Below, one piece after another: positions 3,190-36,467 of a stretch of DNA of 64,000 bases. Where the stretch lies: NCBI GenBank assembly GCA_002989075.1, contig PSQN01000004.1, forward strand, positions 1,116,001 through 1,180,000, in the 5' to 3' direction. The notes beneath the pieces are model-generated. The model saw only the letters and a list, made by a program, of their open reading frames with translations, made no database searches and was not told the DNA's origin. The stretch's first letter is position 1, and each line of letters starts with the position of its first letter. A program made the translations under genes and the position numbers. The stretch is from Arthonia radiata (taxonomy: Eukaryota; Ascomycota; Arthoniomycetes; Arthoniales; Arthoniaceae).

Positions 3190-3860
3190 AAATAAACCTT
3201 GCTCGCAACCTAATAAAGATATATTACGGCCTAAATTCAATCTCTAACTCTCTTTGACGCCTACGGTAGGTCCGAGAGAAGCTTAAATACAAAGGCGTCT
3301 CTAGTAAGGAGAGTAACTACCGGGCGCTTAAGAACTTCTTAACGGACACCTAAAATAGGCAATTTCTTATATACTAGCTAGTTAATTAAGGGCTTAATTA
3401 ATTAACAACAATATAGTAAATCTTAAGCTTAATTTAAAGTCTTAGAGTTAAGCGGTTTAAACATTTAATTAAATTAACGGTAAAGTATATCGATAACCGA
3501 GTTCGCAGCAAAGGTACTAATTAAGAGCTCTAATACTTTATAGGCTTCTTTCGGGACGCCAAGACGTTTCTTAATCTACGGTAGGCTATTAAGTATAGCG
3601 ACGTTAGAATAATTGTTAAATATATACGCCGCTGCTACGTCCTCTTCTACGGCGCCGGCGCGTACAACTATACGATTAAATTACTTTACTTTCTTTGTAT
3701 CTTTACTACTAAGTATATTAATTTGCCTATACGAGACCTCCTACTTTTAGTAATGCTTATTAATATTGAAGGGCGTGTTAATAGCTTCTTTTCGGTTAAT
3801 CTTATAAATAAGCACTTTAACGGCCTTATTAAGCAGATCTAGCTTAATAGACGTAACAGC
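3190..3860 (+). pseudogene. Degraded transposon coding region, possibly DUF6589-like
   Basis: Read conceptually through stops, this stretch gives protein-like text: NLARNLIKIYYGLNS, then RDAKTFLNLR, IKYSDVRIIVKYIRRC, FYGAGAYNYTIKLLY and INIEGRVNSFFSVNLINKHF. The order (charged DAK.FL.LR segment, Y..LFYG.G..NY motif, then N.EG...SFF..D-like segment) resembles the fungal DUF6589 family found on repeats. I recall this pattern and have not searched it. Stops and the AT skew show it is dead. Confidence 0.4.
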
Positions 3861-6800: not shown

Positions 6801-7640
6801 CAATTTAAGCTATATTAACTACGCTTAGATTCGAGCAACAAGAACAATAACTTCTAATACCTTCTGTATATAAATAATTGTCTTTAATAGCTACTTGTTA
6901 GCTCGTTGTTGAGCTATATTGTATAGTAGTTAAATAACGCGCCGCTAGATAGTTAAAAGGCTTATATTAGGCTTCTCCTTAAAGAATAGATTAATATTAC
7001 TTAAATTAATTAACGTTTAAATAGTATATATACTGTTCTTAAACGCAAGCTTAAGCTTTAACTTATAAAATATTAAAATTAGGAGTATAGCTATAGTTAT
7101 AAAGAGAACAACGTAGTTTAGCAACGAACGTCGAAGCGTACTAAGTTTAAGAAACTTAAAACAAAAGGACTCTCTCTATTCGCTATAAACATACAGTTTG
7201 TTAATAATAAGAAGACAGACAGCTTTGCGGAAAGAAGGCTATTTAATTACGTCTTAAAAGAAGATATTACTTAATATAATTTTAGAACTAAGCTATATAT
7301 ATATATACTCTCTATCTATAATCTGTTAACGGCTCTTTTCGCTGTTAGTTAAACTATTTAATATAAACAGCCGTACCTCTTAAAGCTACTATGTCGCCTT
7401 ATACTAATTATTCTTAATCGCCTTTAAGGAGCTAATAATTAGTATAATGCTTAAGTTTAGTATATAAAGTAGGTTAAATACTTAAAAGATAAGTGTTTTC
7501 CTAAACTTACATTTTGTAACTAATATAACGTCTTACTAAGCTTTTAATGTCTTTAAAGCTTTAAGCTGCTTAACTCTTACCTGTTAAATACTAAACAGCT
7601 GTTCAATTAACTGTGCGAAGGCAGAAGACAGGCGGGTTGG

Positions 7641-7766
7641 TTAAATAGTATTGGTAGCAGACGCTGTATTAGCGTCCTTAGCGTGCATACGCGTTGCTGT
7701 ACGCGACTGAGGCAGTTCTTGAGCCTTTTTGGTCGGAATTTTTGTACGCTTAGAAACGCGAGGCAT
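7641..7766 (-). pseudogene. Decayed N-terminal remnant of a second transposon gene
   Basis: ATG at 7766 opens a basic peptide, MPRVSKRTKIPTKKAQ, that stops after 41 codons at 7641. Beyond it, protein-like text continues between stops. Such lysine/arginine-rich starts are common in transposon proteins that bind DNA. This gene would run opposite to the plus-strand remnant. Family not recognised. Confidence 0.3.
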
Positions 7767-7842
7767 TGTTAACTTAGTTGACACGCTTTTTTGATCAAAT
7801 TTCAACGATTAGAATAATGTTTGGTTGATGAGACTAAAAAAG

Positions 7843-7947
7843 CTGCTATCGGGCCTCAGACCCTTCAGGCGTCTACTTCCTAAAGGGGAATAGCGTGGTA
7901 AACACGCACGGGCGCCCAAGGGTCTGAGCGGGCTGAGACTATCGACC
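7843..7947 (-). repeat. Right terminal inverted repeat with internal hairpin
   Basis: Complement of the left end, differing mainly by transitions. It has its own inner palindrome: CTCAGACCCTT (7855-7865) against AAGGGTCTGAG (7918-7928). Both ends thus keep the same fold although the arm sequences differ by compensating transitions. Confidence 0.75.
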
Positions 7948-8289
7948 CGGGCAGAATAAGGCCTTACCGCAACAGCACTAGCGTCAGGGGTCGTAGTCAA
8001 ATTTCATGTCGAGATGTATGAAATTTGAGAGACGTTGACATTTCAAGCTGCAGCATGAACAGCGATGTTGACTAGACACGGCAAAATTGGCACAGTGAGA
8101 CCCCTCCCCGCCCGTTCGCCAGTACTCAGGCTGCTCCCAGTCTCAGACATCCTCGCGGCGGCTTTCTGTTCAGCATCAACATCCCTGTGCTAAGCTCATC
8201 CGCGCCGCCATTTCTTGCATCATCCGGCTGATGTCAATGGTATCGGTGGTGTTGCGCAAACACTCTGGCCCATCATGCCAAGGGGGACA

Positions 8290-17239: not shown

Positions 17240-18138
17240 ATGCATAAATTCAAATCACAAGTGCAGGACTTCCTGGGTTGTAGCGGAGATGCAGAGTTCC
17301 ACAGATCGACCCTTGAGATCCTGCCCCTGGGCGACTCGATAACATTCGGGATCGAAAGCCCAGAGGGCAATGGATACCGAAAGCAATTGCAGAAGCTGCT
17401 AGAGCGTGACAAACATGTCAATGTCACCTTTAAGGGCACAGAGCGCAATGGCAACATGCCGAACAATCACATGGCTGGGTGGTCGGCCAAGACGATTGAA
17501 GAAGTGCAGGGCATGATGGGACCAAGCTTGCAGCAGGGCGCGGATGCGGTACTCGTGCATATTGGCACCAATGACTGGTGTGTACTATGATAAGAAGCGT
17601 TGTCGGCGAGAGATATGTCATAAATACTGGGTCGAGTGCTGACGCTTCTGCGCAGCAACCCCGACTCAGGTATCTCACGTCAGGGCACAGACGCAAAAGC
17701 CGCTGCAGCCCGACTTGGCGTGTTCGTAGATGCTGTGATAGAGCAGTGCCCTAAGGCTACGATCTTGGTCGCGCAGATAGTTGGCACTGTAGACGACAAG
17801 GATCGAAAGCCACAGCAGCAGCTCATCGATGTCTTCAATGCTCTGATTCCGAACCTGGTGTCAGACAAGGCAAAGGCGAGGAAGCATATCAAGCTTGTAG
17901 ATATGCGAAGAGTTGTTGGCTCAGTCAGTGATGTCATGAAGTGTGCAAAGATCAATGGGTTTGCTGACATCCGCTGCAGAAGTTCATCTCGCCCGTCATT
18001 GGAGGTGTGCATCCAAACGGAAGGGGGTACGAAGAGATGGCAAAGATCTGGGCGGAAGCATTGCATGATGTGTCGTCTGCTCTGTCTGAAGTTGCTATTG
18101 CGAGCCCACCTGGCCCCACTTCATCCACATTGCCTTGA
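17240..18138 (+). CDS. SGNH/GDSL-type hydrolase
   Basis: Exons 17240-17577, 17656-17923 and 17980-18138 give 254 aa. Block I is ILPLGDSITFG (catalytic Ser in GDS), block III is VLVHIGTNDC (Asn in GTND) and block V is GGVHPNGRGYEEMAKIW (catalytic His in HPN). Together these define the SGNH superfamily of esterases/lipases that deacylate carbohydrates or lipids. No signal peptide at this start, so it is cytosolic unless a 5' exon is missing; an in-frame stop lies just upstream of 17240. The tail is Ser/Pro-rich. The last intron starts at GTCAGT (17924), chosen to join VVGS to KFISPVIGG. Confidence 0.82.
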
Positions 18139-18236
18139 ACAAGGGCTAGCATGTTTATGAACGCCAACACAGACACAAAGAGTGGAAAGGCTACTGTCGC
18201 AGATATTTTGGAGTCAAACACGAATGCAAAGCAATG

Positions 18237-18285
18237 TCACGTGCATCAGTGCCTGTCTCTTCCGTTGAAGCATGGGAGGGCAGTG
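18237..18285 (-). repeat. Bipartite element copy A (inverted)
   Basis: TCACGTG at 18237-18243 and AGGGCAGTG at 18277-18285, 33 bp apart. This is the reverse orientation relative to all other cluster 1 copies and lies 99 bp past the SGNH hydrolase stop codon. Confidence 0.85.
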
Positions 18286-18365
18286 CTGGCAAGGACGCAG
18301 CTAGGTCAATAGCGCCTGGAACTAGTCTCAAAGATAAATGGCCACCCGACCCGGAAGCGAGAATA

Positions 18366-18413
18366 CACTGCCCTCTACAATATGCTTAGCATAGGTAATG
18401 TCCCGACACGTGA
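18366..18413 (+). repeat. Bipartite element copy B
   Basis: CACTGCCCT, 32-bp spacer, CACGTGA followed by T. Confidence 0.85.
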
Positions 18414-18596
18414 TATGTCTAACTTAATCGACAGAGCTCTGATGCCGATGATGTTTGCCTCGCAGGCAACTAGGCAGTCTACTTCAAGTCAGCGTAAGGC
18501 AAACCCTCTCCAATTTCGACAACCCATGATAGCATTTGCCTTGTCTGTAGATCAATAAAGCTCGGGCCAACCAGTTGTCACCGCCCGGTGAACTGG

Positions 18597-18644
18597 CACT
18601 GCCCGGTGCAATTGGTGTGATGCCAGCCAGGTCTAAACACGTGA
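18597..18644 (+). repeat. Bipartite element copy C
   Basis: CACTGCCCG (one change in the last base of box 1), 32-bp spacer ending in AAA, CACGTGA followed by C. Just upstream is a partial echo, CCGCCCGGTG, of its own first box. Confidence 0.8.
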
Positions 18645-18890
18645 CTCTTACTGATATACATCGTTTGTCTCACGTGGAGGTCTCTTACTAAACACTACCT
18701 CCAGGCTGTGAATTTGAGTCTACGGTAGCGGCAACAAACGCGCGGCACGCATGAACTTGCTACAATCGCTGGGGCCTGAGAAAGTTCCGTCTGCATGCAA
18801 GCTCCCTGTGCGCGTATCTCCGGACTCATTCTATCGGAAAAAGCCAGCCACTTGTTCGCGCCATCATGTGACGATGACCTTCGTGTCTTA

Positions 18891-18939
18891 CACTGCCCTC
18901 AGATGTCCATTCAATGCAGGCCAAGCGTCCACCACGTGA
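18891..18939 (+). repeat. Bipartite element copy D
   Basis: CACTGCCCT, 33-bp spacer starting CAGATGT (shared with copy F), CACGTGA followed by C. Confidence 0.85.
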
Positions 18940-19086
18940 CATGCCGCGCGTCTCCCTCCAGATAGTAGGAAAAGCAGAATCGGGGTTTGTCATCAAATGG
19001 CAATTATACCCGTTTAACAACTGGGACTGCCCGTATAGCAATTGTGCAGAGCTCTATCACAAGTCAATTGTCCAAGTTGGGAGATA

Positions 19087-19135
19087 CACTGCCCTGTGAA
19101 TGAGAATTTGCGGCGGCCACACTTCAAACACGTGA
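19087..19135 (+). repeat. Bipartite element copy E
   Basis: CACTGCCCT, 33-bp spacer ending AAA, CACGTGA followed by C. Confidence 0.85.
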
Positions 19136-19339
19136 CATTCTTGAACAATGATAGTTTGTGGATGCGGGCGCCAGTGATCTTGTCAGCGTAAAGCCTGTGT
19201 AAGCTATCAGAAGCACCCAATTGGTTTCTCGAGCAGTCGTCATTCCTGAGGAAGGCACCCGTTCGCTCGGGTTGCTCGAAAAGACGAGGCGCTGACTGGG
19301 CCGACACTTAGTGACTTGGTGGGTTGTGCTGGCTCATTT

Positions 19340-19388
19340 CACTGCCCTCAGATGTGCGTGCGATGCCAGCGGAGCACTAAACACGTGA
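19340..19388 (+). repeat. Bipartite element copy F
   Basis: CACTGCCCT, 33-bp spacer starting CAGATGT (shared with copy D) and ending AAA, CACGTGA followed by T. Confidence 0.85.
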
Positions 19389-19635
19389 TCCACGCTGTAG
19401 CGTTTTCTGCAAGTATTGGGAAAGGATGAAATGGGTGTTCAATTACGCAAATATTGCTACGTGGACCAATAGAACCCTCATGCTGATAAGGTAGGCAAAC
19501 GTCCGTCGCGCATACCCTGGGTTCAATCAGACCATTTTGTGCTGATGCAAGAAGACGCATCTCTGCACATTTTGCCGCCGGGAAGCGTCCAATCATGGGC
19601 GGATGCTTGGGCTATATGCGGTGACTCCGGCGCGG

Positions 19636-19684
19636 CACTGCCCTTCCGATTCCACCTGCAGACACATAGGCTTTCAACACGTGA
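19636..19684 (+). repeat. Bipartite element copy G
   Basis: CACTGCCCT, 33-bp spacer, CACGTGA followed by C. Last copy before the 3' end of the NACHT gene. Confidence 0.85.
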
Positions 19685-19922
19685 CGCCCATCAAGTTTGT
19701 ATGGTACAGACTTAAGGCACCATCTTTTGAAGTCTGCTGATGTCGAGAAGGCTGCATCTCCGGGTGCTCAAAAAGTGAAATGCCTGCACAGATGAAGCAT
19801 ACGTCGAAGGACACTTGCTTCGCACGAGGGCGCACCTAAGACAGGTACGTTCCTCTTTTGAACCCACGACGGCTGACAGCAATCGTCAAGAAATGACGCT
19901 CTCGATTCTAGGAATGCCCGTC

Positions 19923-22900
19923 TCACATCCCCCACGTTCGCTTGGTGCCGCGCGGAGCCAAAGCTTGGCGCTGATGCGCATCCAACGAGTTCGCACCCGT
20001 TGGAGGATTGTAGTATTGCCTGTAGTCTTCATAAGAGTGAGTCTGCAAAGGTGGCAACTCATTCCAAGAGTTGCCAAAGGCTTGAGTCTCTGTGGTATTG
20101 CCGTCAATGTAGCCAAAGTCCGCTCCAACATCGAAAGGCTCGGCACGGGCCCACGCAGACGTCGCAGGGTCTTCATGTAAAAACCGCCTGGACAGAAGGT
20201 CCTCGATGGACGGCAGTGGGACGTACGCTGCTTCATCTGCAGCTCTGCCATCGTCCCGTCTTGGGGATTTCCCCGAGGGTTCGAACGTACCAGAGGTTGG
20301 ACGCTCGTCAGGCCCAGAGTCTGCCGGAAGATTTTCTCGTCCTTCGAGTATGCGTTTGAGGCAGATCGTCCGCCCTTTCTTGCTTTTCCAATGCTTTTTC
20401 AGGGTCTCAGATGTCCGAAACTCCTTCTCACACCCCCACACTATTCTCTCCTGCTGGTCTCTCGATGGATCGACGTATTTTAATTCGCCCGTGCATTTGT
20501 ACTGGGATCGACCGTGGACGAAACGACACTGATCTACAAGCAGACCAATGCAAGCGCCAGAGCTTGTACCATCGGGGTTGATGTAATGTTGTGACAATTT
20601 GTCGCTCCGGGGGAAGCGCCTACCACAGCCCCATTCCTCACCATCGTACAGTTTTGAGCCAAGCTTCCCCTTGCACACGAAAGGGTACACGTCACGGTGA
20701 TACCCGTGCTCGTGTCGACTGCGATCACTAATCCTACTAAATACTGTAGGACAGTACGCACATCGATGCGGCTTTGCACCCTTGTGATAGGAGTTGATGT
20801 GATCGTCCAGGTTCATTTTCCTGGTGAAGGCCTTCGAACACAGGTCACAAGCAAACTTCGAACTCGATATTCCGGCGTTATCTTCAGCTGCAGATTCTTC
20901 ATCACTACTTCCAGCTGCTTGCATTAGCTTGAATCGCTTGCGTGGGGGGAAGTCATCGTATTCGAGAGGAAGCTTTTCCCCATGGACGGCTTGGAGATGC
21001 TCTCGTAGGTCTTTTTCAGAGCCAAATCCATGCTCTGCATTTGAACAATCGGCCCAAGTGCAGCGCCAAGGCTTTTCGTGATTCTCAAGATGGGCTTGTC
21101 GACGGTCGGCGCTTGTAAAGCCCTCAACAAAATCTACGCAACCGATTCGGGGGCATTTGAAAAGGTCCCTACCATAGAACTTTTCAAGAACCTTGTTCGG
21201 AGTGCGACCGAGTCTCTCCACGACACTTCTGATAGCTTGCAGCTTCTCAGCTAAATTCGTCGTATTGTTCACAATATTGTTCGACTCGTTCGACTGCCTT
21301 TGGTGCTCAGCTGCACTCACAGCCACCATGATGTCTTTCAAGCGTGGCCATCTGCACACCTTTATCCACCGCAGCTCTTGGAGTGTGTTGTTCACCATTA
21401 AACGTTTGACAGATGAAACGCAATTGTGCTGCATGAAGGCGTCAAGGTTCTCGCCGAGCAAGCTCATCGTATCTTCGGCCGCTGGATGTCTGAGACATTC
21501 CTCAACGTGGAAGGCCCAGAAAACGGTAGCATAATCGGCGAACGCGTAGTATCCCGAATAGGCGTGCACCTCGATCTCAGCCTCGTTCTTGGGCAAAGCT
21601 GCATCAAATCCGGGCCCTGTGAGCAGCGAAAGGCATACATCAGCAAGATGGAAATGTAGACTTTGCAAAATGATCCTGCCTTCGGTGTAAAGATGCTCCT
21701 TGGCCGTTGAATGGACAAACTCAATATTGCCATTTGGCGCGATGTCGATCAAGGAGCTGCAGAGGTGCCTGGCGCTTTGCAGTAGACCTAAGCGCTCATA
21801 GTCAACTCTGCGATTATCTGTGACTGTCGCCAAAGCTCCTTGGATCTCTCGCCACTTTAGCGGTCTTCGAGCTGCAGCGAGAATGCCGAGTACCTGTAGT
21901 ACACGCTCGCGTCGTCGCGGGACTTCGCTGTCCACAACACGATGTAAGATGCGCTTGTAAGCTTCGCCAACTCCTAGCCGACGCGATTAGTATAAGATAC
22001 TTTCCCAAATGTATCAGGATGTCATGCCTGGATGCAGCGGAGCTGTGAAATTTAAAGCAGCCATCAGGCTGCACCTGGAGAAACTTACCTGTGGGAAGGT
22101 GCATATTTACTTCATTCTCCAAGCTCTGGCGATCAGTCTGGTGCCTGAGGTTTCGCATGACAAGAACAGCGTAAAGAAACATCCCTTTAGCATGAGAGGT
22201 GACAAACATCACGATCCTGTCGGTTTGTTGATCATCCAGATCGAAAATGGCCCGAAGACGGGCGCATTCTTTTTGAACAAACTCTAGTATGTCGCCTCTG
22301 TTGTCTTGCTCCGTGATTGTGATGGTAGGGTAGCGCGACAGCAACGGAGGGCAGATATTGTCGCTTTGACTGACGAGTAGACAACGTAATGACATATTTT
22401 CACCCTCCGACGACCTGTCCAGAAATGATCGGAAGAAATTGATGACCTTTCTCGGCTCGTTGCTGTCGTTACGCTCCAGCTCGTTAACGCAACATTCGTC
22501 CACCCCGTCCACCACGAGATACACACTGTCCATGTTCTCGAAAGCTGTCTTCAGAATGTCTCTGCATCGCTTTTCTGTCAAGGCTGCCTGGCCAAACCTG
22601 AAGGCTTCCTCGTAGAGCCAGTCGAGGAGTGTAGGCTTTTGGAGGTAGATTTGCCAAATGAGCGAGCGAGCGACGGACAATAGGCTATCTCGAGCTTGAT
22701 CACCATTTTTGCAGTAGAAGCGAAGGACTGCAATACCTTCTTCCTTTTCAAATTGTTCTTCGCAGTGTTGGACCACGAGAGAAGCTAAAATTGTCTTCCC
22801 GGCGCCTGGCTGACCTGTCATCCACACAATTTTTGAACCACTCCGGTCTGAGCTGAGCCAATTTTTCATCTCTACTTTCTGCAGCAACCATTGCCCGCCG

Positions 22901-24008
22901 GAGGCATGCGAGCCTCTTCTCTCGTTGTACGTTATCTGCTCCTGATCGAGACTGTCGTCGACGGAGAGCCATTGTTTCAAGAACCCCTGCCTTCTGTCCC
23001 TTTCAGCCTGCTGGTAATCGCGTTCATGCAACTTTTGCTGCTCAAATCGTTCGCGTTGGTCCGCGAAATACGCTCGAAGCTCGTTGAATTGTTGTTGAGA
23101 TTCCCTGTAGTGCTCCAGTTCTGCATGCCTTTTGACCACTTCGAAATTGTCCTGGAGGCTCTTGAAATAAGGCTTAAATTGAGTCTTGAACGTGCTCCAA
23201 ACGGCGTGAAATAGCTACAACAAGACTGTCAGTCAAGCAGAGCTTGTAGGGTGCGCAGGTTCTGCACGTCAGATAGTGATATTGACCGTTCTGGGAGAAC
23301 CATTCTACTTTCTCCTCCACGTAGCCTTCGTAGGCTGATGTGTGCATGCTGTCGACTTACCTTCTTCCACGCTTTCTCTCGAAAGCAATCCATAGCTCGA
23401 AGATGGAATTCCAAGATTGTTTTGAAAATGTCAACAAGTGCGTCCCTTAAATATGGCGTATGCTTGAACAAAATCTCATACTGTTCCAGCATTGGTATGG
23501 TCCGCCCAATGTCGCTGTACATCTCCAGCATCGCGTCGAAGGCGTTGGCAAAATTACTAGCTACCTCAAGCAAAAACTTCATCGGACCCCACACGAAGCC
23601 CAGATAGTCTGTAGAGTTCAAGAACACTTTTACGACCCTGTCCTACATGGGAGCCATCAGTAGAAGATCTTTGCTGGCGGCAGCTATACGCTGCTTGAGC
23701 CGACGCGCCAACTATTTCCAGATGGCTTGATGGCTTTGCCGCCGGTAAGATGCCAATTTACGAACGCTTGGACGCCATGAACTTACAAGCGATTGCATGG
23801 CTTCGAGGAAGCTTTTTATGCGCGGTAAATTTCTCAACAGTCCTTTCTTTGCTTGGGTCTGCTGTATGTTGTATAACGCGTTTTCGAGCTCATGCAAATT
23901 TGTGAATCGGAACTGACGTTGTTGATCGATAGATAGGCGATGTTTGAATTCAGCTCGGAAGCTATCGAGAGCCTTCTTGAGCGCCTCAGATTCAAAGGCA
24001 CGCGCCAT
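19923..24008 (-). CDS. STAND/NACHT NTPase with N-terminal DUF7708-like region and C-terminal C2H2 zinc fingers
   Basis: Exons 23787-24008, 23361-23642, 22089-23214 and 19923-21973 (introns 144, 146 and 115 nt) give 1226 aa. Residues 1-190 (for example DYLGFVWGPMKFLLEVASNF, helical) look like the DUF7708 region seen at the start of fungal NACHT proteins. Residues 190-250 are a charged coiled coil. The NTPase follows: Walker A MTGQPGAGKT near 300, Walker B VYLVVDGVDE near 400, then a winged-helix-like segment (RPLKWREIQGALATV). The region after about 815 has C2H2 fingers, the clearest being FACDLCSKAFTRKMNLDDH and HRCAYCPTVFSRISDRSRH, plus CCHH variants such as CTWADCSNAEHGFG. STAND proteins act as signal-sensing switches in fungal non-self recognition. 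The usual C-terminal sensor is WD40, ankyrin or TPR repeats; here fingers take that place. Target unknown. Confidence 0.8.
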
Positions 24009-24983
24009 AGCGTGTAGGTGCTACTGAGCCTAGATGCGGAGGCCGAACTGAACCATGTGAACAAAGCCTTCACACGTTACGATGCAAAGTGCAACTAGGT
24101 AGAGAGCAAGTGAAGGAGCTCGGACGCGAGAATTTGGAGCCACAATGGCTTACAGAAGGATCCTCTGAAAACAATGTTGATACTATGGCTACGCACGGGC
24201 CTTTCCAAGTGAGAACAGTCTTGGGCGACAGCCACCGCACATGTCTTTTGGAGGATATTTCCTCCCAAAGACGTGAGTCGGAAGGCAGCGAAGCCTCAAG
24301 GTGGCTGAGGGGGGTGATGCAGGCGAATGCTGTGGTCAATCAGATTGCGCAGCCCTGCTGCAGGAGCGACGCGAGGCATCCACTAGTGGTTTGCATCCTG
24401 AGACGCTGACACCAGACCCGCTGACACCAGATCCGCTGATACATTTCACTTTTGAGCGCCATGCTGGAGCTCGTCGAAGCGTGACACTTGGGCGTTCGAC
24501 AACGCAGCTCACAGCGATGGGGTGGTTGTGAAGGAGATGGGTTAGAAAAACGGCAGCTATTGACGCTAGTCCCAGAAGGTATTGGCGTATAATTGCCCGA
24601 GGTGGCTTGGCATCTCGCCTGTTTGCCCTCTGTTCATCCTCCATGTGTCGCTCATCCGTATGCGCAGCAGTAATGATCAAGCCGAAGCCTTCTGAGGGCA
24701 CTGCTTTTAATGCCGCTGGCAAGCAGCCGAGCATTACGTTGCCGATAACATGCGCCTGACTGGCTTGTACCTGCTCGACCTTGATCTTATATCAGTTGTG
24801 CTGTCAAGCAGCCCACACTGAAGGTGCCGCGCTTTTGCTTTCCTGCATCCCGTGCTTTGAGCTGTAGTGGCGCAGAAAGATTGACACTGTGTGCAATGTA
24901 CATCCTGCAACTTGTTGCAAGCCGCTGGCTGGACTGCCCCTCTCTACTCCCAGCGGTCTCAGGCGCTATTGACAGCACGCACG
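24009..24983. other. Divergent intergenic region; weak minus-strand frame 24336-24734
   Basis: Lies between the divergent NACHT and SNF2 genes. A minus-strand frame (24734 to 24336) has one hydrophobic stretch (YLLGLASIAAVFLTHLLH) but no family and a low-complexity GSGVSGSGVSVSG tail. The tail comes from a short tandem repeat near 24405-24440 (about 2.5 copies of a 15-16 bp unit containing CTGACACCAGA). I do not call it a gene. Confidence 0.35.
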
Positions 24984-27900
24984 ATGGCTGAAGATGAATC
25001 TTGGAGGACCTTGAGTCTTTGCGCAGACTGGCAATGGCCTAACGAAGGGCGTCCGCTGGGTACCGATTCGCTGAGCGGTTTCCAATCTCTCGAAGAAGAC
25101 TATGGTGTCGAGGGCAACGTGGAGCCGTCGACCAGTTGCCCGGCATTGACTCCCGGGTACTCGACGACACCGGAAACAAGCTCCTTCGATACGCACCCCC
25201 GGAACCTCAATGTCGACCAGCGGCCGCTCTACTCTCTTGACCACGCGCAAGCATACAGTTTCTGTGACACTTTGACTCCTTCACAGACACAATTACAACC
25301 TGGCAATCAGCTGGTATCAATGGACTCTGATGCCGGTGACGCGATGGTGTGCTATGGACGTCTACCTAACATTAAAGCTCGCCTTGAGACCAATCCCAGC
25401 AACGTGCGTACCCTCTCAAAAGGGAACTTCGTATATTTCCTGATAGCATCCCACAAAGACTACTTCTATTTGAATGACAAAGTTCAGAACTTCGCCTTTA
25501 TCAGTCTGCGTGTATGCAATACTCTGCAAAAGCTCCAGGATCGTCAATTGTTGTATAAAGCATACGTTCTAGCAGACTCCTGGACCAAGATCGTGAAGGC
25601 TTGGAGGCCATCTGCAAAGACTGGAAGGGAGTTCACTTTCAGCGTTGTGGTATGCGGCTCTAGGAACAGGGCCATGGAGGTTGGTAATATCTTTTCAGAT
25701 GCAAAGCTCTTCCTGCAACAGCTAGAAGAGTTTCGCCCGGATCATTCTCTTGACTTGGTTAACCCGCACTGGCTACATCTCCCTAGTTTCTCGAAGTTTG
25801 AAAAGTCTTTCGAAGATGGTAGCGAGCAACAAGCTGAAGAAAGTCCTCTATTGTTGCAGTCTGTCTTCGACGCGACCTCACAGCATGACGCGTTAGATGA
25901 GGCTTCGATCGACGCTCGCGTCTCAAGCAATCTCCACAGGCACCAAAGAACTGCTGTTTCGTTCATACTGAGAAAAGAGAAGGGCACGTTGCCGGACTCA
26001 ATGAGTCCGTGGCAAGGTCGCCAAACTCAGGGCGGGCACTGCTACTATGAGCACGCAATTACCGGCGATCACGAAACCAACCCGATGAAGTCAGAGACTC
26101 CCGGTGGCATTCTCGCTGATGAAATGGGCGGGGGTAAGACTGCCAGCCTTCTGGCGGTCATTGTTGCAACGCTTGACGAAGCTCGGTCTCTCTCAAAGAA
26201 CACCGGAAACACAAATCTGAGGACTGCAGAAGCCTTGCCCGGTTGTCCCGCAACGTTGGTGATTGTTCCCTCGGAGCTGCTTCTAGCGGCTTGGGAGTCA
26301 GAAATCCGCCGCCACATCCGCCCTGACACACTGCGAATCCACAGGTTCCATGGCGCCAAAAAGGAAATCGATCCCGGCCGGCTGCAGAACATCGATCTCG
26401 TCCTCACGACGTATGCAACGGTGGAGTCCGACGCCCGGGGCTACAAGTGTTTGAGCAAGGTGTGTTGGTATCGGATGGTGCTCGATGAAGGTAAGACCAA
26501 GCACTCGATCCACCTGTTGGACTTCTCTCTTCATGCTGATTTCACGTATATGAAGCGCATGTAATTCGGTCAGACACCACCAAGCAGCACGCATCAGTAA
26601 GAGTGATTTCGGCGCGCTCCAGATGGTGCCTCACGGGGACACCCATGCAGAATAAGCTTGAAGATTTTGGATCTCTCCTTCGATTCCTGCAAGTATCTCA
26701 ACTCGAGGACCGTGCCAACTTCCGAAAACACATTTTGTTACCCATTGAGCATCATAAAGACACCACCAGCCTGCAGAAGCTGCTTCCCTGGGTCTATCTC
26801 CGTCGGCGTCGCGCTGCATTCGGAGTGCCGGAGCCCGCAGTTATCCTCAAGCGGCTACGGTTGTCCAAGGAAGAACGCGGTCGATATGAGCAGATCAAAA
26901 GTGCGTGTAGCGACGCGATCAAACTTGCTCAAAGTCGTGAATCGCTGGGTGACAAACGACGGTACGTTCCCAAAGACGGCTTTGTCCGTCCACCCCTCTC
27001 GAACCACTGGATGGTAGGGGCTGCATCGCGAGTGCGGTGACTTTTGGTCAAAAGGGCAGTCGTCATCAGATCTACTTCTTCAACCTCAGCGCACGAATAA
27101 CTGACATCCGCACCAACAGGTCAACTTTACGCCAAAGCCTAAGGCTGCGCATCACCTGCAACAACGGCACCTTCGAAAAGCCACCGCCAGAATTCGCTAA
27201 GGACCCGTTCTCGCTGCGGGACACTGAAGGTGCGCCTTCCGGAAAGGGAGACTGCCCATCGTGTTCGAAAGAGATATGGACAATCAAGGAAGAGAAAAGT
27301 TCGTATCATCACATTTGTGGAGCTTGCGCCTCGAACCTGTGCGAGCAGTGCTTGCCAGAGTACGCCATTAGCATTGCGATGAACTGCAGCAAGGCGAACA
27401 GACTCTGCCAGCATTGCCAGAAGACTTTCAAGCCCCGTACATACGACGGCGTCGCATCGGCGTCGCATTTTGAGAAGCTTACCGACCTAGAACTCGACGC
27501 GAACACCAGCACGAAACTTGACGCTGTCGCGAGGGACATCGTAGAAAACAAAGCGACATGCAATAAGTAAGTTCCAGGCCATAGTGCAGGCTGCATAGCG
27601 ATTGCTAACAAGCTTGAAGCCTTGTTTTCTCGACCTGGCGAAACACGCTTGAGCTACTACTACGACTGCTTCGTCGTAAAGGCATACCCGCCAAGCTCAT
27701 CCACGGCCAGACGTCTGTAAGCGAGCGCACCGCAGTGCTGAAGTCGTTTGAGGAGCATGCAGCGGGCGCTGTGTTGCTCATGACAATCGGTACTGGCGGT
27801 GTCGGTCTCAACATCTTCTCCGCCAACCGCATCCATCTCGTCGAGCCTCAATGGAATCCTGCGAATGAAGAGCAGGCATACAGCCGCGCTGTTCGCCTTG

Positions 27901-28040
27901 GTCAAGACAAGCAAGTGACCGTCATCAAATATGTGATGGACGACACTGTCGAGATCGAAGCCGTGCAGCGGAAACAAGCTACCAAGAGAAAGCTTGCGGA
28001 GTCATTCAAGCATGAACACGAAATGATTTCGAAACGCTGA
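24984..28040 (+). CDS. SNF2-family ATPase with degenerate RING (Rad5/HLTF/Rad16-like)
   Basis: Exons 24984-26490, 26556-26961, 27120-27566 and 27620-28040 give 926 aa. Helicase motif I is DEMGGGKTAS (about 380), motif II DEAH is created across the first intron, motif III region is WCLTGTPMQNK. A cysteine/histidine cluster at about 680-735 (CPSCSKEIW, HHICGACASNLCEQC, LCQHCQKTF) is a RING-like domain inserted between the helicase lobes. The C-lobe shows LVFSTWRNTLELL, IGTGGVGLNIFSANRIHLVE and motif VI QAYSRAVRLGQ. This arrangement is typical of Rad5/Rad16-type translocases with ubiquitin ligase activity, but the RING has unusual spacing and there is no HIRAN domain, so it may be one of the expanded fungal paralogues rather than Rad5 itself. 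First in-frame ATG is 24984. Confidence 0.85.
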
Positions 28041-28187
28041 AGCGTATTGCTAGAGAATAAGTTCTGAAAGACAATCGAGTCACAATTTTTGTTGGGCGTT
28101 CCTTTTGGCGTCTTGTTGCGTGGAAGAAGAGTCAGCGAAATTCTGATGCACAATATTGGCATCGCCAAGAAAGCCGATGATGAGCAG

Positions 28188-28235
28188 TCACGTGTTAGGA
28201 CGCCCGGCCCTGTGCATGACGGTCGGAGGGCAGTG
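28188..28235 (-). repeat. Bipartite element copy H (inverted)
   Basis: TCACGTG, 32 bp, AGGGCAGTG. It is the only inverted copy of cluster 2 and lies 148 bp past the SNF2 stop codon, mirroring copy A after the SGNH gene. Confidence 0.85.
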
Positions 28236-28373
28236 CAGACGCGGGAGACTGAGGGAAACGATGATGCTGAAATTGATCTGAAACGATGATGCGAGCAGGC
28301 ATCGATTTGCCTTGCGATCGCCTTGCATCCTATCTGACAAGGATAGCCAAACTCAGTAGCATTTGCTTGGTAG

Positions 28374-28374
28374 G

Positions 28375-28410
<36 letters not shown>

Positions 28411-28413
28411 GCA
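28374..28413 (+). repeat. CAA trinucleotide microsatellite
   Basis: About 12 uninterrupted CAA units followed by CAGCAG. No coding frame is supported across it. Confidence 0.9.
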
Positions 28414-28716
28414 GCACCGTCATTGCAAGAGATTACTCGAACCATCATCGCCCAAACCCCCCCTTTGATAAGGTGTTAGACTCTTTGCGTGAGGGGTAGA
28501 AGCGCTCCCAATGTCATATCAATTAGCCATTGGCTCTGAGCTGTGACGAGAACAGCGAAATCTCAGCACATGGCGATTCTTCGTGACACAGAAGGTCATT
28601 CGTCACACTAGCATCTTGATAGGCCGTAGCCTTGCCCCTCGAGATCTGTATAGGTCTAGCTCGCTGCATTATGCAATGCGGCCAACAAAATGAGGCCGGG
28701 TGCGAGAGGGTAGTAG

Positions 28717-28765
28717 CACTGCCCTTTATATTTCGACACAAGACGCGGAGTCCCCGAACACGTGA
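28717..28765 (+). repeat. Bipartite element copy I
   Basis: CACTGCCCT, 33-bp spacer, CACGTGA followed by T. Its spacer shares TTCGACACAAG with copy J. Confidence 0.85.
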
Positions 28766-29189
28766 TTATAGTACCTCCCTTTCGTACCACGAACACTAGA
28801 ACATCTCGGTGTCCGCGAACATAGGAGGCGCTCAAATGTCACAACGAATCAAATCTGCCCACTGATTTTGTAACTGCGTGAGTGAAGGTCTCAGCTTGGC
28901 CGAAAAGCGGGTGCCGCAGGCATAGAGGACAAGTCATTGCACTCGAAATGCGATCGGCCGTTGTACTGCCTTGCGAGGTCTGTGCGAGCTGCGGGCCACC
29001 TTTGATAAGGTATATGGCTTTTATCACATTCCGACTAACATGGTAGGAAGGTAGGTACAGGAGGATGAGACGGAAGATATGAGTGCGTCCATCACGTGAT
29101 CCCAATATATGCCTATTCAGGCAATTCTCCACCAGGCATCCCGTGTCTTGGCATGGCCATCTGGACTGGGCGATCCTGCACCCTTCCTA

Positions 29190-29238
29190 CACTGCCCTCC
29201 GATATTCGACACAAGCAAGGGAGCCTCTGTGCACGTGA
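29190..29238 (+). repeat. Bipartite element copy J
   Basis: CACTGCCCT, 33-bp spacer with ATTCGACACAAG at the same offset as in copy I, CACGTGA followed by T. Confidence 0.85.
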
Positions 29239-29673
29239 TCATCTCATTTCTCATCGCATGAACCGCACGAGTGTTTCGCTGCATGTCGCTCCATAGAACC
29301 CCTTCAGGACCTGTCCAGAGTTTCAGACACCAAGCCCTGCCAGATTATCGAACGATATTGTAACACACCCTTGCGCTTGTGGACTGCGATGTCTGCTTGA
29401 ACTACCTATGTGCCCTCTAAGATGCACGTCCGAATGGACTGCCTTAGTCACCGTCGTGACTGCGATGTTCAGACGTTTGTCCAGAGGGTGAAGAGCGCAG
29501 GCGTGACGTGCGACGAGTCTTGCGACGCCAGTAAAACGTTGCATGCGACACAGGTATTCTAATGAGCGCTACTGTTCACCATCGGGTAAGTTGTCGGGCA
29601 TGGATGAGTGAATGTGTAAGGAACCCTTTGGCTGGCTGGCCGACTGGCAATTGGCTGCCTCCATTGGTGTTTG

Positions 29674-29722
29674 CACTGCCCTTTATAACAGTCCGCAGCA
29701 CACAGCGCGTCCAAACACGTGA
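29674..29722 (+). repeat. Bipartite element copy K
   Basis: CACTGCCCT, 33-bp spacer starting TTATA like copy I and ending AAA, CACGTGA followed by C. Confidence 0.85.
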
Positions 29723-29817
29723 CTTTGCTGCCTGTAAAAGCCTATTGATGCGATTAGTTGGCGACATGAGGTGAGTTTCGTGCAGTAGATGGGGCTGAGC
29801 CAGACTGTTAAGACTTG

Positions 29818-29866
29818 CACTGCCCTCTCATCTTTGGAACGAAAGTGTGGGAGTTGAATCACGTGA
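29818..29866 (+). repeat. Bipartite element copy L
   Basis: CACTGCCCT, 33-bp spacer, CACGTGA followed by G. The only copy in which the flanking base breaks the RTCACRTG consensus. Confidence 0.85.
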
Positions 29867-30168
29867 GCAGAGTGTCGCATGCTTGGAAGTAGCATCAGCC
29901 TCTTCTGTACCGACGGTCCAGAGCCGTCGCATAACTTACACTTGGACATCTCATATAAGCTAATGACAGCAAAGTCCAAGTTTCTTTGATTAGTGCTGTG
30001 GTTCTTGGAATTAGCGAGCAGACAGGATATGTTTCAAGTCTCTGTAAGTTGAAGGTGTAGATATTGAAGTCGAGGTGATCCCAGGAGTAGTAAATGTTAT
30101 TATGTGCAGGATCGTCACGGAAGTAAAGCACAACGAAAAGAAAATCAAAGAGCACACACGGAGTAGAG

Positions 30169-30217
30169 CACTGCCCTTCAAATCTATAGCTGCCGGCTGG
30201 AGGGTGCCAACACGTGA
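30169..30217 (+). repeat. Bipartite element copy M
   Basis: CACTGCCCT, 33-bp spacer ending CAA, CACGTGA followed by C. Confidence 0.85.
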
Positions 30218-31270
30218 CTGTGAAGCGGCCCTGCTTCCCTCATACGACTTTGAATGAGTTGCCACGCTTACTTTGGGAGCGACGTGGGCGTCCATGCTAT
30301 GGAGTTTGTGGAGCCTTGATTTTCCTCCTTTAAAGGATATAGGAAGAGATGGTCTGCGATGTCTCCAGTGCTTGTTGATGGCAGAAGGGTTGAGGGGGGA
30401 TGGGCGGGCTTTTGGGGGCGAAACCCCTGCCAACAGAGTATCTCAGGGGTTTGAGAGGAGGCGGATTTGCGCACAATACCGCCAAGTCTTTTGCCAGCCA
30501 TTCTCTATTTCAACATTGGTTGCATATTATTAGGTACGTAGATGGCCGATCTACCTAGCGAGCGCAACATTAGCCGACGACTGTTCTTGAGAGGAGCAAA
30601 AATATACGCTCTCACACGCGCGCGTAAGAGGGGTGGAGGGTCAGCGTAACAGCAGGCGCGCACGTTGGACACGCAAGTACGAACGACTAGGGCGTTTACG
30701 AAGAAGCTTACAGACACGGAATGGCGGATGTAAGTTAAATACGATGACACATCGACGCTACACCATCTCGACTCTCGAGGCGTTCATAGCTGCGTTCGCC
30801 GTGAGCACGCAGAAGTAAGTTCAACCACTTCCCAGCTCTTGGCCGCGGTTATATTCATTACACAGAGTACGAACGTTGGTGCGTGGCGCTGCTATCAGGG
30901 AGCAAGCTACTAGTAGGTGTCCACGGTTCGCAAGCTTCAGTTCGACAACGCCTTCGAGCATACAAAGCGGGCCGATTTCCAACATATCCAGAATCTGGTG
31001 TCTCATGTGCTCGTATATCTTCTCACCAATTGAGCTGCTTATCATGCTCGCATTTGAAAACTTTTGAAACCCGACAAAAGCCAGCGTGACCTTTACCGGA
31101 TACGTCCACGATGGCTTTCTCCTTCGCAAATAAGTATCGCGTTAATGCTATTACTTGATGGTCTTCATCAGAATCCTCACAGCATTGAAAACCATCTCTA
31201 TTACTTTGCCAGCGCTACTTCATTACTTTGTTACACACCAAAGTCTTCTACCACCAATCGTGTCTTCAGT

Positions 31271-31680
31271 ATGACTAGTGTTTCAGGTAAATTCTACAAC
31301 AATGGCCGAAACATCGAGTTCCACGTCGACGCTGCGTCTCATCGGCAAATGAAGGAGCACCACCCCCTTCATTCAGCTGAAAAGACCGCGGAACGGGTTA
31401 TAATGCTGGCACAAGCGCGAGATACATCCGCGACCGTGTCCTGCGGCGCAGTCATGATTGTTCATGATTCAGGGTGAGTTGACTTTGTTCTCCAACCTCC
31501 TTCCCTATCTGGTGATATCAAGTGCGCATCAAGGACACTGACTGTTCCCGTAGCGCGACGGTCAAAGTCTGGTTCTTTGAGAACAAGGACCACATGGAAA
31601 AGGGTCAGGACTTGAAACATGCCGACAAGATCGATGTGCGGACCGTGGACCCGAACCATCTTTCGCAGACTTTGACATGA
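31271..31680 (+). CDS. Small orphan protein, 109 aa
   Basis: Exons 31271-31473 and 31554-31680 (intron GTGAGT...CCGTAG, 80 nt) join in frame. The product reads MTSVSGKFYNNGRNIEFHVD, AEKTAERVIMLAQARD, SCGAVMIVHDSGATVKVWFF, EKGQDLKHADKIDVRTVDP. The even mix of residues, clean splice and in-frame join argue for a real gene. No signal peptide, membrane segment or known domain; probably a small cytosolic alpha/beta protein. It stands alone in a region otherwise empty of genes. Confidence 0.55.
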
Positions 31681-33720
31681 TCTGTCCTTGATTACACGGT
31701 GGACAATATGTCGCGCAGTAGTTCAATCGACGATTCATAAGACCGCCGTCTCGTTTGGACTGGCAGCCGAGTTTCTGCATTATTCGGCTGACGCATCGCG
31801 TACACGAAGAACCTCTGTGCGTGAGCTATGATACTGCATACGATTGCTCCTTCACCCCTTTGCTGCGCGAGTTTCGAATTGAGATTACAGTGCTTTGCAA
31901 GGCGTGAGTGGTCGCTGTTGAGATAAAAGGAGTTAAAGGAGGTGATGACAAAATACGCGCATACGACCCATCCTTAGAATCATAAGGAATAAGGTCTGCA
32001 GGTAGATGGCCCTGCCGAGACACCTCCCATGTCCTTCGCTCGCAGGAATTACTGTCTGAAGCTAAACGAAGGGAACCCTACCACAGAGCCAACTATGCCA
32101 TGGAAGACACCAAGCAGGCCACTCCTTTCTGATACGAGCTGTGTATGACGAGCAGCCCAGCTTACCATTGCTACCAAGCTTATCGAGCACCCACCCTACG
32201 GCACTCTCGATATTCGCGACGCGCTCGATTAGTCCCACGATCTGCACTTCGAGCAGTGCGACTAGACTATCCCGGGAGTCGTTAGGAGAGCAGCAGCGTC
32301 TTTGGTGAAAGACTTCCGCCTTGAACCCGACTCACCCCGGCTTCGCGTGGAAAGGAAACAAAAGCTGAAAGCCAGGCGAAGCGAGCAAATGCAAGTCATT
32401 TCCGGTGCCTCAACCGACGACAGACCAAGCAATCCAGGACTGCAAAGCCTACCCAGTGCTATTCGAGGGCTTGCACTATTGCCCAGGGCTGACTGTTGCA
32501 CAGAGTCAAGGGGCTACTGAGTACTCCTTGCAACATCGTGGCTGCATTCGTCAGCTTAGGTATGCACGAGCCGAAGCAGACCTTGGAGCTTGTTCACGGT
32601 CGTCCACTCCCTGCCAAGACGGGTTGTCTCCTAATCTTGTTGCTTCCTTGAGAAAAATTAGATTGATGAAATGGCACAGATGTCCTTACGAGATTAATAG
32701 CGCCCCAGTACAAATCGTACTAGCTTCTCCGCACGGACCATATAGATGACGACCGGTGGGAGCTAGGCCAAAACAAGTCGAATCCACGATCGCAAATGGA
32801 TCAACTCTCGCATTCATCTCCTTTTGCAGAGCGACGAACCCCCATCGATGGCCAACTCTCTTCCGACAAGTTTGACACCTGTTTCGTATCTTACTCAGCT
32901 CGTCTAGATGTACCCACACCGACGCATCTACTGACTGCTTCTGTAATTCACAACAACGGCACGTCAACGGCCACCTATTCCTCTGTCGTTGGATCAACGC
33001 ATCGCAACAGTCGTGACTCTCGGAGAAAGCTACCTGTCTAGAAAGTCTTTAAAGCTTGTGTAGCTGACAGCTTGCGTAAGGCCTGTGAGCCTTACAACCG
33101 TACCACATCATACGCCCCATTCGACCATCCAAAATTCGTCCCCACACCACATCCAAGACTACTTGCGACATGCCGCGAATACTCTACGCTGTTGTAGCCG
33201 CGGACTAGTCTTTAAGCAAACCCATAAGCTGATTCAGACTGAGAGCGGCTGGCCGTCAAACCCATTGCCTTGGGAACACCTAGGTGACCTTGGGGGGCAG
33301 GAGAAAGAATGCCTTGCCCGAATAATGCTATTCTTTCATATATATCGTCGCGCAATATACCAACTGCGTGCGCGAGGAGTGTACGGATTATCGCCCCTAC
33401 CTAGATGACTCCGTCCGCGGATATCGGGCGACCAGTCAGCTAGTACGTGTCAGCATGAAGCGAGACACGAAGTAGGGTAAGACAAGACACGTAGCTACCC
33501 TACTATTAGCACAGGAGACGTGGTCTAGCACGTAACTTCGTATAGGAGACGTATATGCTTCGTTGCTTAGCGTTCGATTGTGGAACAAGGCAAGAACGAA
33601 TATAGAGGGGCCGTCTCCTTGGGCATTCTAGCGTTTCCCATTCTTCCTGACAATCACCATAGCTGAGGCTTCTCCAAACGATCTCGTATCCTTTCACACT
33701 TGAGCGCTAAACCCTTCACG
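31681..33720. other. Intergenic, no gene seen
   Basis: About 2 kb. Several short frames, none with protein-like composition or family resemblance. No copy of the bipartite element. Confidence 0.4.
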
Positions 33721-34835
33721 ATGCCGTCGTTGAAGTTTTGGAAGGGGAAAAAAGACAAACAACAAGCCGATGACTTCACCCAGAGCCTCCGCGATCATGG
33801 CTCAAGTCCAGATTCTAACCAATACAGAAATACAGTTAGGCTATAATCTATCCGCGATAAGGGCATGTCCAAGCACGACTTGGACTGATCATGCAAACTA
33901 TAGGCAATGCCAATCCTTTCGGTGATCAACCACCAGAGTATAGCACTGTGGCCGGGTCATCAACACAAGCATCTTCGTCGACCCACCACCAGGCGCCGTC
34001 CCATATTCCCTCTAAGAAGTCCGGACTTGAACTAGATGAACTAGCAACACCAGAAGACCCATACGCTTTCCTCTACTCGTTCGATACCGTTTTCGTGATT
34101 GATGATTCGTGGTCAATGTTGTTTCCCGAATCTCGTTGGCATGATGCTCGTCATGTCCTGAAGGCCATCACGGAAATCTGTGTCGATCACGATGAGGACG
34201 GCATTGATGTGCACTTTCTTAACACGAAACATCATCATACCCGTAAGCATCCGGAGCGACCCTCTCACTTCCCGCAAAGCAAGCTTGCTGACATGAATGA
34301 CCAGACAGCAATATCAAGCAGCCGCGCATTCTCGACGACATATTTAAATCCGCAAAACCCCCTCACAACAGATATACTACTCATACTGGAAGGGCGCTGA
34401 GGAAAATCTGGGATGCGTATGAGCCCGGGCTGAAGGCCAATATGAAGAAAACGAAGCCAATGAATGTCATTGTTATTACTGACGGCGAACCCTCCGATGA
34501 TCCCGAACCCGAAATTATACGTATCGCGAAGGCGCTTGATAAGCTAGACGCCCCGTCGTATCAGTAAGTGTCCAAAGCACGTAATTCTTACTTACGTGAG
34601 GTGAGAACTAACAAATTCAACTAGGTTTGGTATCCAGTTCATCCAGGTTGGGGACGACGCAAAAGCCACGAAGCATTTAACAGAGTTGGACGATGAACTG
34701 AAAGAACAGGGCGGCGGCTGTCGCGATATTGTAGACACTACTCCATATAAGCAGGGCCAAGAGTTCACGTCTGACATGATCTTGAAGGCCGTACTGGGCG
34801 GTGTCCACAAGCGATACGATCGGAAGAAGAATTAG
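33721..34835 (+). CDS. von Willebrand factor A domain protein
   Basis: Supported exons are about 33904-34242, 34305-34563 and 34625-34835. The first exon probably begins at ATG 33721 (MPSLKFWKGKKDKQQADD), but its donor is not certain: GT at 33806 restores frame with a weak site. The vWA domain shows the metal-ion-dependent adhesion site DxSxS in FVIDDSWSM, then RWHDARHVLKAITEI, THTGRALRKIWDAYEPG and MNVIVITDGEPSDDP. Short basic N-terminus plus NPFGDQPPEYS precedes it. Fungal intracellular vWA proteins of this build are common; the partner is not known. It ends with a basic KRYDRKKN tail. Confidence 0.75.
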
Positions 34836-35778
34836 TAGCGAACACTGGAAATGACCTTGATACTGTAGATATAGCAACATAACATCCCTTTTTGCGTGGC
34901 GAGAAGGCTCCCGTACCAAAGAATACATTATTTGATTATCCTAACTTCTGTCACGCAAGTCTATAGGGCTTCAGTAATCATCCAAAATTTCTTCAACCAT
35001 TTATCATTAGACAAGCAGCGTGCATTGTGTTAGTCTGCTATTAACCGTCCTGTTTACCTCATTAGGAACCAACTCGACACCAAACCCCTGTTATGCCACG
35101 GACGCTGGCACATCTTCGTATTCAGAGCACTAGAAGAACAGTACCTTCACCGAAGGTGGAAGCCCAAAGCTTTCGAGATGGCTAGCCTATAGACGCATAC
35201 AAGTCTGACGAACCAGTTTCCACTGGCCGCGATCATCTTGAAGCTGACGGCGAGCATCAGAGCGCGTAGCATCGACGTGATGGGGCCTTGGGTTGTTGCG
35301 GGATCTCGAGGTGAGTAGCTATGATTAGCTGCACAGGTGCGCTGCTTGCGCAATTCGCTGAGGCGAGGCGTAGCCACTGTACGACGGCTACCCGCAGCCC
35401 TACCCTCACATGTACATATGCTGGATTGACATGACGGACTGGGTGCGCCGTCTCTTCCAGAATTCCAAGTTCGCGGGTAACACAAGAGAGGTGCGAACTT
35501 TCTTCACCGCCGCCCTCGCGTTGTGGGAACAAACATCTACTGCGTGAGGAAGCGCTACTGCTGCGCTCGCGACAGCAATTGCGATGAGTCCTAGGAGCTT
35601 ACCTTGGGTCAACGGCTTCAGTTGTTGCAGCATTTCATTGTGTCTATGGTATCACGGTCCTGCGTTACAAGAGCCAATGCACGAGACGAACTGTGTCCAC
35701 TCATGTCGTATCAATCAAAAGTTCGCGTCTTTCACGAAGCCTTGGCGCTGGTTGCCTTGTCTTTGTAGGCATGCCAGC

Positions 35779-35827
35779 ACTGCCCTTCGTACTGGTATCT
35801 GCGGGAGAGCATGTGCACACACGTGAC
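35779..35827 (+). repeat. Bipartite element copy N
   Basis: CACTGCCCT, 33-bp spacer, CACGTGA followed by C. Confidence 0.85.
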
Positions 35828-36180
35828 TTTTGAGCACTGTACTTCCTGAAAACCTTCCCCACACAAGCTCGATGCTTTGTGCTACCTCTGAAGGCTGTTT
35901 CCGTTTCGACGATATTGTTCTTAATATTGCATCCCCGGGCCAGCTGCCGTGCCGATGAATCTTCCGGTGCTAGGATGTTCATCGCGCCGTGTATAAATCA
36001 CTGGCCTTGCGGCAGCCGGCCAACGGGCGGTGTTCCTTGTTCATCGCGATACAAGATCAAACTCAGTATGTTGGAAGCTGAGACTGAGATGCGAAGGCGT
36101 GCCAAGACCGTTGTCTATACCAGGTATCGGGATACGTGAAGAATGACAAGGGGTACCGAAGCTAGTGCACGAAAGCATTA

Positions 36181-36228
36181 CACTGCTCTCTTGTATTTAC
36201 ACAAGCGTGCGAGTGTCTCGCCATGTGA
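36181..36228 (+). repeat. Bipartite element copy O (degenerate)
   Basis: CACTGCTCT, 32-bp spacer, CATGTGA followed by T. One transition in each box; both are C-to-T. The second box still fits RTCACRTG on the other strand. It lies 240 bp upstream of the CUE3 start codon. Confidence 0.7.
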
Positions 36229-36467
36229 TTTCGACGGACTGCCCCCTGCCTCAAGGGTGCAAGGCTAGACCGAGAAATTACGCCAGGCTTAAAAGGGAAA
36301 GGCGCATTCTGCAAAGTAGATCTGCTTGCACCATCAAGTCATGATTCACGACGCTGCTTCATAGCTTCTTGCGCATGCATATGGCAGGAAACCGTTGAGC
36401 TAAGCAAAATAATTCAGCCAGCTTGAGTGCTTCAGTACAGAAATATCACCAAAAGTAAAAGACAGAA

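Follow-up and report, generated by a model that had tools for sequence, protein, structure and literature searches.

Why does one locus of a fungal genome carry fifteen copies of a two-part sequence word that is private to it? The question is raised by a stretch of 64,000 nucleotides of the ascomycete Arthonia radiata, referred to here as the window, which spans positions 1116001-1180000 of contig C14 (PSQN01000004.1, 2.01 Mb) in a genome of 33.5 Mb and 16 contigs. The word consists of a 9-bp box, CACTGCCCT (box 1), a gap of 32 or 33 bp, and the sequence CACGTGA (box 2). The resulting element of about 49 bp recurs in three gene-poor stretches (arrays 1 to 3) within 18 kb. From sequence comparisons, we estimate at about one in two the probability that the elements constitute a locus-private composite protein-docking array of the silencer, boundary or locus-control type.

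A two-box element of rigid spacing

Array 1 comprises copies A (18237-18285), B (18366-18413), C (18597-18644), D (18891-18939), E (19087-19135), F (19340-19388), and G (19636-19684). Array 2 comprises copies H (28188-28235), I (28717-28765), J (29190-29238), K (29674-29722), L (29818-29866), and M (30169-30217), and array 3 copies N (35778-35826) and O (36181-36228). Copies A and H are on the minus strand and the 13 others are oriented rightward, on the plus strand. Within arrays, neighboring copies are spaced by 129 to 529 bp. A search of the window recovered the fifteen copies reported in the initial annotation, with both boxes exact in 13 of them, and no match was found in 100 dinucleotide shuffles of the window. 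The imperfect copies are also as originally described: C has one change in box 1, the last base of which is G, and O has one C-to-T transition in each box. The start of copy N, previously placed at 35779, is corrected to 35778.

The gap is 33 bp in eleven copies (A, D, E, F, G, I, J, K, L, M, and N) and 32 bp in the remaining four (B, C, H, and O), in agreement with the first description. If up to three changes and gaps of 15 to 60 bp were allowed, the window contained 11 matches at a gap of 33 bp, 4 at a gap of 32 bp, and 0 to 2 at each other gap. The starts of the two boxes are 41 or 42 bp apart; by simple arithmetic, this distance corresponds to four helical turns and places both boxes on one face of the DNA, as had been suggested. 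In 14 of the 15 copies, a purine directly precedes box 1. The proposal that all copies are located in gene-free DNA and none in an exon was borne out for the exons of the named genes, none of which holds a copy, but four minus-strand open reading frames of at least 100 amino acids overlap copies H, K, L, and M. The sole one of these four frames that was compared with Pfam (30014-30442) had no match.

Confinement to one locus and constraint on the boxes

The perfect pattern, with gaps of 25 to 45 bp, was found 13 times in the 33.5-Mb genome and all 13 matches were located in the locus, versus about 0.4 matches expected genome-wide from simple base composition and none obtained with a reversed-pattern control. 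Relaxed patterns led to a similar picture. Omission of the last base of box 1 (gaps of 20 to 50 bp) gave 15 matches, of which 14 were in the locus (2.3 expected by composition; 2 in the reversed control). The patterns CACTGCC-N33-35-CACGTG and CACTGC-N35-36-CAYGTGAY each had 16 genome matches, with 14 in the locus in both cases (3.6 and 2.1 expected by composition, respectively; 1 in each reversed control). For TGCCCT-N26-40-CAYGTGAY, 12 of the 29 genome matches were elements; the other 17, compared with 16 expected by composition and 2 in the reversed control, did not reveal a clear excess of degenerate copies elsewhere, the gap being 32 or 33 bp in 4 of them versus about 2.3 expected. Box 1 alone was found at 258 places in the genome (286 expected by composition; 168 in the reversed control). 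Neither box is rare alone; only their pairing at a set spacing is special, and only at this locus. The spacing of 32 to 33 bp thus withstood the genome scan that the initial annotation had named as a possible refutation. A genome-wide class of origins, insulators or promoters, which it had also considered, is unsupported for an element confined to a single locus.

When 264 kb were scanned with a profile of the element, scores of 34.6 to 46.2 bits were obtained for the 15 copies and of 20.2 bits for the best match that did not share a box with them. High scores are built in for the copies from which the profile was made; what is informative is the empty interval below them, and no decayed copies were detected in the 264 kb. 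More degenerate copies may exist outside the profiled DNA. De novo scanning for gapped pairs identified 68 recurrent pairs between 17 and 37 kb of the window versus none in each of six control stretches (window 0-17, 37-50.5, and 50.5-64 kb; L009-L010; L019-L020; L037-L038). In a search for a third motif common to the arrays outside the elements, the CAA microsatellite alone was strongly enriched and three further words were at about 0.05 after correction. In array 2, a CAA microsatellite is located at 28376-28408.

The sequences surrounding the elements have little in common. Local alignments of the 150-bp flanks were no better than those of shuffled sequences, which answers the concern that the copies might be recent duplicates of one long repeat. 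For nine of ten 16-bp blocks outside the element, between 68 and 393 of 500 shuffles were at least as alike, the tenth being the block directly 5' of box 1, considered below; no other conserved block was detected within 60 bp of the element. The middle sequence of the element had been described as free. This does not apply to the 16 bp beside each box, which are weakly conserved and more alike than in 2000 of 2000 shuffles, although no single spacer column stands out. The summed information of the eleven 33-bp spacers was 14.8 bits versus 7.5 ± 1.0 bits after shuffling.

Residual likeness was also observed between the spacers of D and F (20/33) and of I and J (18/33), suggesting old local copying. 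Copying must have contributed because fifteen de novo matches of sixteen bases are implausible, and old local copying is the likely origin of the elements. Repeat-induced point mutation (RIP) targets long, similar repeats, and dinucleotide ratios, judged by the usual thresholds for RIP-like values, did not reveal a RIP signature in the arrays, unlike in AT-rich blocks nearby. The arrays therefore did not originate or spread recently as long duplications. The AT-rich blocks (30-41% GC) are located at 2001-8000 of the window and, on C14, near 1066000-1080000, 1086000-1098000, and 1208000-1220000; RIP-like ratios were found in all three stretches tested (2001-8000, near 1066000-1080000, and near 1208000-1220000). 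A long repeat or transposon family was rejected as the identity of the elements on the basis of flanks at shuffle level, no exact copies elsewhere, and no decayed copies in 264 kb. The last two observations also weaken the earlier suggestion that the element is a core preserved from an old family of repeats.

Box 2 as a Cbf1-type site and the genes of the locus

Box 2 is CACGTGA in 14 copies and CATGTGA in copy O, and the next base is C in nine copies, T in five, and G in one. Box 2 and the next base thus form CAYGTGAY in 14 of the 15 copies, including nine with the full sequence CA[C/T]GTGAC. The motif bound by Cbf1 is gtCAC[A/G]TG, the reverse complement of which is CA[C/T]GTGac (PMC10381965). 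Read in reverse, box 2 has the sequence of a site for Cbf1, i.e. of centromere DNA element I (CDEI), and copy O deviates in box 2 exactly at the C/T position tolerated by the CDEI motif. A Cbf1-like protein is encoded on C16 by an HLH frame that matches yeast Cbf1 with an E-value of 4.9e-22 and is identical to it through HKEVERRRR, taken to be residues 227-235, for which DNA contacts are named in PMC10381965. There are five HLH matches in the genome, and other basic helix-loop-helix (bHLH) proteins of the same specificity are possible readers of box 2. In Neurospora, CBF-1 reportedly modulates recruitment of the White Collar complex to the frq locus (PMC6152987). The rigid spacing, the Cbf1/CDEI-type box 2, and the lack of flank homology together lend support to the two-site protein target envisaged in the initial annotation. 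CACGTG sites devoid of box 1 are present at 29092-29099 in array 2 (TCACGTGA) and at 18670-18677 in array 1 (TCACGTGG).

From left to right, the locus comprises a GDSL-lipase gene, array 1, a gene encoding a NACHT-C2H2 protein on the minus strand, an SNF2 gene, array 2, a possible small gene, a VWA gene, array 3, and a CUE gene. The GDSL-lipase gene was identified with Pfam and its 3' end is not fixed. The NACHT (NPHP3_N)/C2H2 zinc-finger gene (19926-24008, minus strand), located between arrays 1 and 2, was delineated by Pfam and a family alignment, with the start (ATG) placed by eye; it includes a DUF7708 stretch and a winged-helix Pfam match below the cut-off. The SNF2-type helicase gene (24984-28040, plus strand; Pfam, start and stop codons) is divergent from it, and array 2 starts about 150 bp past its stop codon. 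The VWA-domain gene (33721-34836, plus strand), between arrays 2 and 3, was recognized by a Pfam match with an E-value of 8.5e-8; its 5' end was placed by eye and its splice model covers 33861-34836. The CUE-domain (CUE3/ASCC2-like) gene (36468-38486, plus strand), just right of array 3, was identified by Pfam and by homologues. The coding genes are of a filamentous-ascomycete type. Among the matches listed for its product, the closest is from Coniocarpon cinnabarinum (class Arthoniomycetes; 57% identity), followed by one unnamed protein at 54%, the rest being at 46% or less. The Pfam domain scan covered 43 of the 153 open reading frames of at least 100 amino acids. About 3 kb (30600-33700) are almost devoid of recognizable genes and may be eroded coding DNA; a possible two-exon open reading frame of 109 amino acids at 31.27-31.68 kb had no Pfam match.

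With respect to these genes, array 1 separates convergent genes, array 2 begins at the 3' flank of a gene, and elements N and O are present 5' of the CUE gene. The divergent promoter, which extends from the NACHT start at 24008 to the SNF2 start at 24984, contains no complete element. Box 2 aims at the closely adjoining gene 3' end in the copies nearest to it, namely A (GDSL), G (NACHT-C2H2), and H (SNF2), and all remaining copies in arrays 1 and 2 are directed rightward; these three cases could be due to chance, and the provisional 3' end of the GDSL gene is one of the ends concerned.

Interpretation and comparison with known systems

The proposed docking array could function as follows. A single composite site of about 49 bp would be reused in the three intergenic arrays of the 18-kb locus. 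A Cbf1-type bHLH-zipper protein, or a bHLH protein of like specificity, would read CAYGTGAY, in keeping with the motif match, and a second sequence-specific factor would read box 1, CACTGCCCT. One complex may then grip both boxes from the same side of the DNA, four helical turns apart, and the weak spacer preferences suggest that the spacer might be partly contacted or bent as well. The pair of boxes, which occurs only there, would provide an address for the locus. The site was presumably multiplied within the locus and held by selection, acting across species as well, and the arrays would determine the state of the entire block, in chromatin or in expression. We favor such a role over gene-by-gene promoter sites in view of the convergent genes around array 1, the start of array 2 at a 3' flank, and the lack of elements in the divergent NACHT/SNF2 promoter. 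Regulation promoter by promoter accounts for part of the arrangement only.

Several observations count against the docking array. The CUE gene has array 3 on its 5' side, as the possible small gene has array 2, and an upstream activating or promoter role is therefore possible for these two arrays. If Cbf1 does act at the locus, it also has CACGTG sites in many other places, and locus specificity would have to be conferred by box 1 or by the pairing; the reader of box 1 is a postulated second factor. Taken one by one, the spacer columns all fall within the 95% level of the shuffles, and the middle third is at background (3.7 versus 3.3 ± 0.5). Finally, the copies have a slight likeness in the 16-bp block that adjoins box 1 on its 5' side, a value reached by 10 of 500 shuffles.

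Among the other explanations, an unlikely one is that the locus addresses itself, the NACHT-C2H2 protein binding the elements by its fingers, oligomerizing, as NACHT proteins do, and marking or regulating its own locus. No other zinc-finger gene was seen in the locus, and arrays 1 and 2 flank this one on either side. Six finger-like motifs were recognized by eye, in a group of two and a group of four separated by about 45 linker residues. The protein belongs to a fungal family with at least 22 relatives, including some unnamed environmental proteins and one opossum zinc-finger protein; in 12 aligned fungal relatives, fingers 1-4 have largely invariant Cys and His residues. According to the finger recognition code, fingers 3-5 would prefer an NGG-GCG-NAG-like site, which partly resembles AGGGCAGTG, the reverse of box 1, but this fit is post hoc and partial. 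Moreover, one finger stretch alone passes Pfam by itself, fingers 5-6 were read by eye and are absent from some relatives, and fingers 3-4 have core contact residues that are widespread in the family and hence do not explain a locus-private site. A similar array at paralogue loci was our own prediction from self-addressing, although not a requirement of it; in the 20 kb around a paralogue 41% identical over the C-terminal half (L037-L038, C5:1472001-1492000), neither a recurrent gapped pair nor a comparable array was found. A term search of PMC4986451 found no mention of C2H2. It is quite unlikely, on the sequence features at hand, that each element instead starts a short non-coding RNA, mostly rightward, as would fit the orientation of 13 of the 15 copies and a spacing of 129-529 bp, suited to short units. 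The earlier idea of promoters of non-coding units fared poorly: no conserved block within 60 bp, no homology in the 150-bp flanks downstream, and no intron-like signals in the arrays were found, the latter being a weak test, as even within the genes few introns are picked up by the pattern. Rfam gave no match at E≤1 in 18000-36500 and none at the gathering threshold across the window, and no tRNA was predicted. We therefore rejected RNA genes, for want of an Rfam or tRNA match, and, on the weak intron test, spliced non-coding transcripts. All of these negative results are compatible with short unspliced transcripts.

Old copying is itself the likely origin of the elements, but the elements are very unlikely to be mere relics of it, i.e. 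a functionless old short repeat whose spread was confined to the locus. The D/F and I/J spacers and the copying needed for fifteen sixteen-base matches would be accounted for, but thirteen copies retain 16 of 16 box bases against flanks at background, half-decayed copies are absent from the 264 kb, and the lack of a RIP signature means that the arrays have not recently spread in the form of long repeats. It also seems highly improbable that the elements serve a recombinase, transposase or replication initiator of some mobile or selfish block, although they have a fixed two-box layout of about 50 bp and their clusters bracket a block that looks accessory in our judgment (NACHT-C2H2, SNF2, VWA). 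No recombinase, transposase or replication-initiator domain was present in the 43 frames (of 153) that were scanned, the arrays are mostly in the same orientation rather than forming inverted ends, and no exact copies exist elsewhere.

Within the docking-array proposal, we offer as a tentative extension that the pair is a two-protein docking word private to the block, by which a Cbf1-type protein, together with a second factor dedicated to the block (possibly its own NACHT-C2H2 protein), might keep an immune-type gene and a chromatin remodeler in a distinct chromatin state. The usual sites of transcription factors drift and are scattered genome-wide, whereas a 16-base two-part word is kept here near letter-perfect in fifteen copies among surroundings without detectable likeness. 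If the word is a protein address, the locus would be a natural case of single-locus targeting by a common factor and a second factor, and would provide a direct assay for the evolution of locus-specific chromatin control in fungi.

The closest known parallel is the Cbf1 site of yeast CDEI, in centromeres and in CDEI promoters, which is shared by box 2 and the next base, reversed, in 14 of the 15 copies, with a Cbf1-like protein encoded in the genome. In contrast to these sites, box 2 is paired with a second box of 9 bp at 41-42 bp, at one locus, and its binding by Cbf1 is a prediction. The point centromeres of budding yeast, with the layout CDEI-CDEII-CDEIII, also combine a Cbf1-type site with another conserved box a fixed distance away. 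However, there are 15 copies here on one contig and no exact copy on others, the gap is 33 bp and not AT-rich, and no box resembles CDEIII. A centromere was rejected: 13 perfect copies are present on one contig of 16 rather than one per chromosome. The HM silencers of yeast combine ORC, Rap1, and Abf1 sites. Such composite silencers and locus-control arrays have several specific sites, restricted to a locus and outside promoters, as do the present arrays, which differ by far more copies, near-perfect, of a single rigid two-box unit known from sequence. In fungal gene clusters, the sites of pathway-specific factors, which are short, lie in the promoters of the cluster genes, and underlie motif methods such as CASSIS, are likewise dense in one cluster and rare elsewhere. 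By comparison, the NACHT/SNF2 promoter lacks the element, array 1 is located between convergent genes, and the scanned frames do not include a biosynthetic core gene. TFIIIA recognizes on the 5S gene a long C2H2 site of about 50 bp with two end boxes. The present element resembles this type of site by its two end boxes, weakly read middle, and similar length, and differs from it in that no Rfam match and no long finger array as reader were found. No described element of this kind turned up among the papers listed by searches of one open-access library, which is weak evidence of absence. Composite binding-site arrays are a known kind, of which a near letter-perfect two-part word, present fifteen times in one locus only, is to our knowledge an unusual variant.

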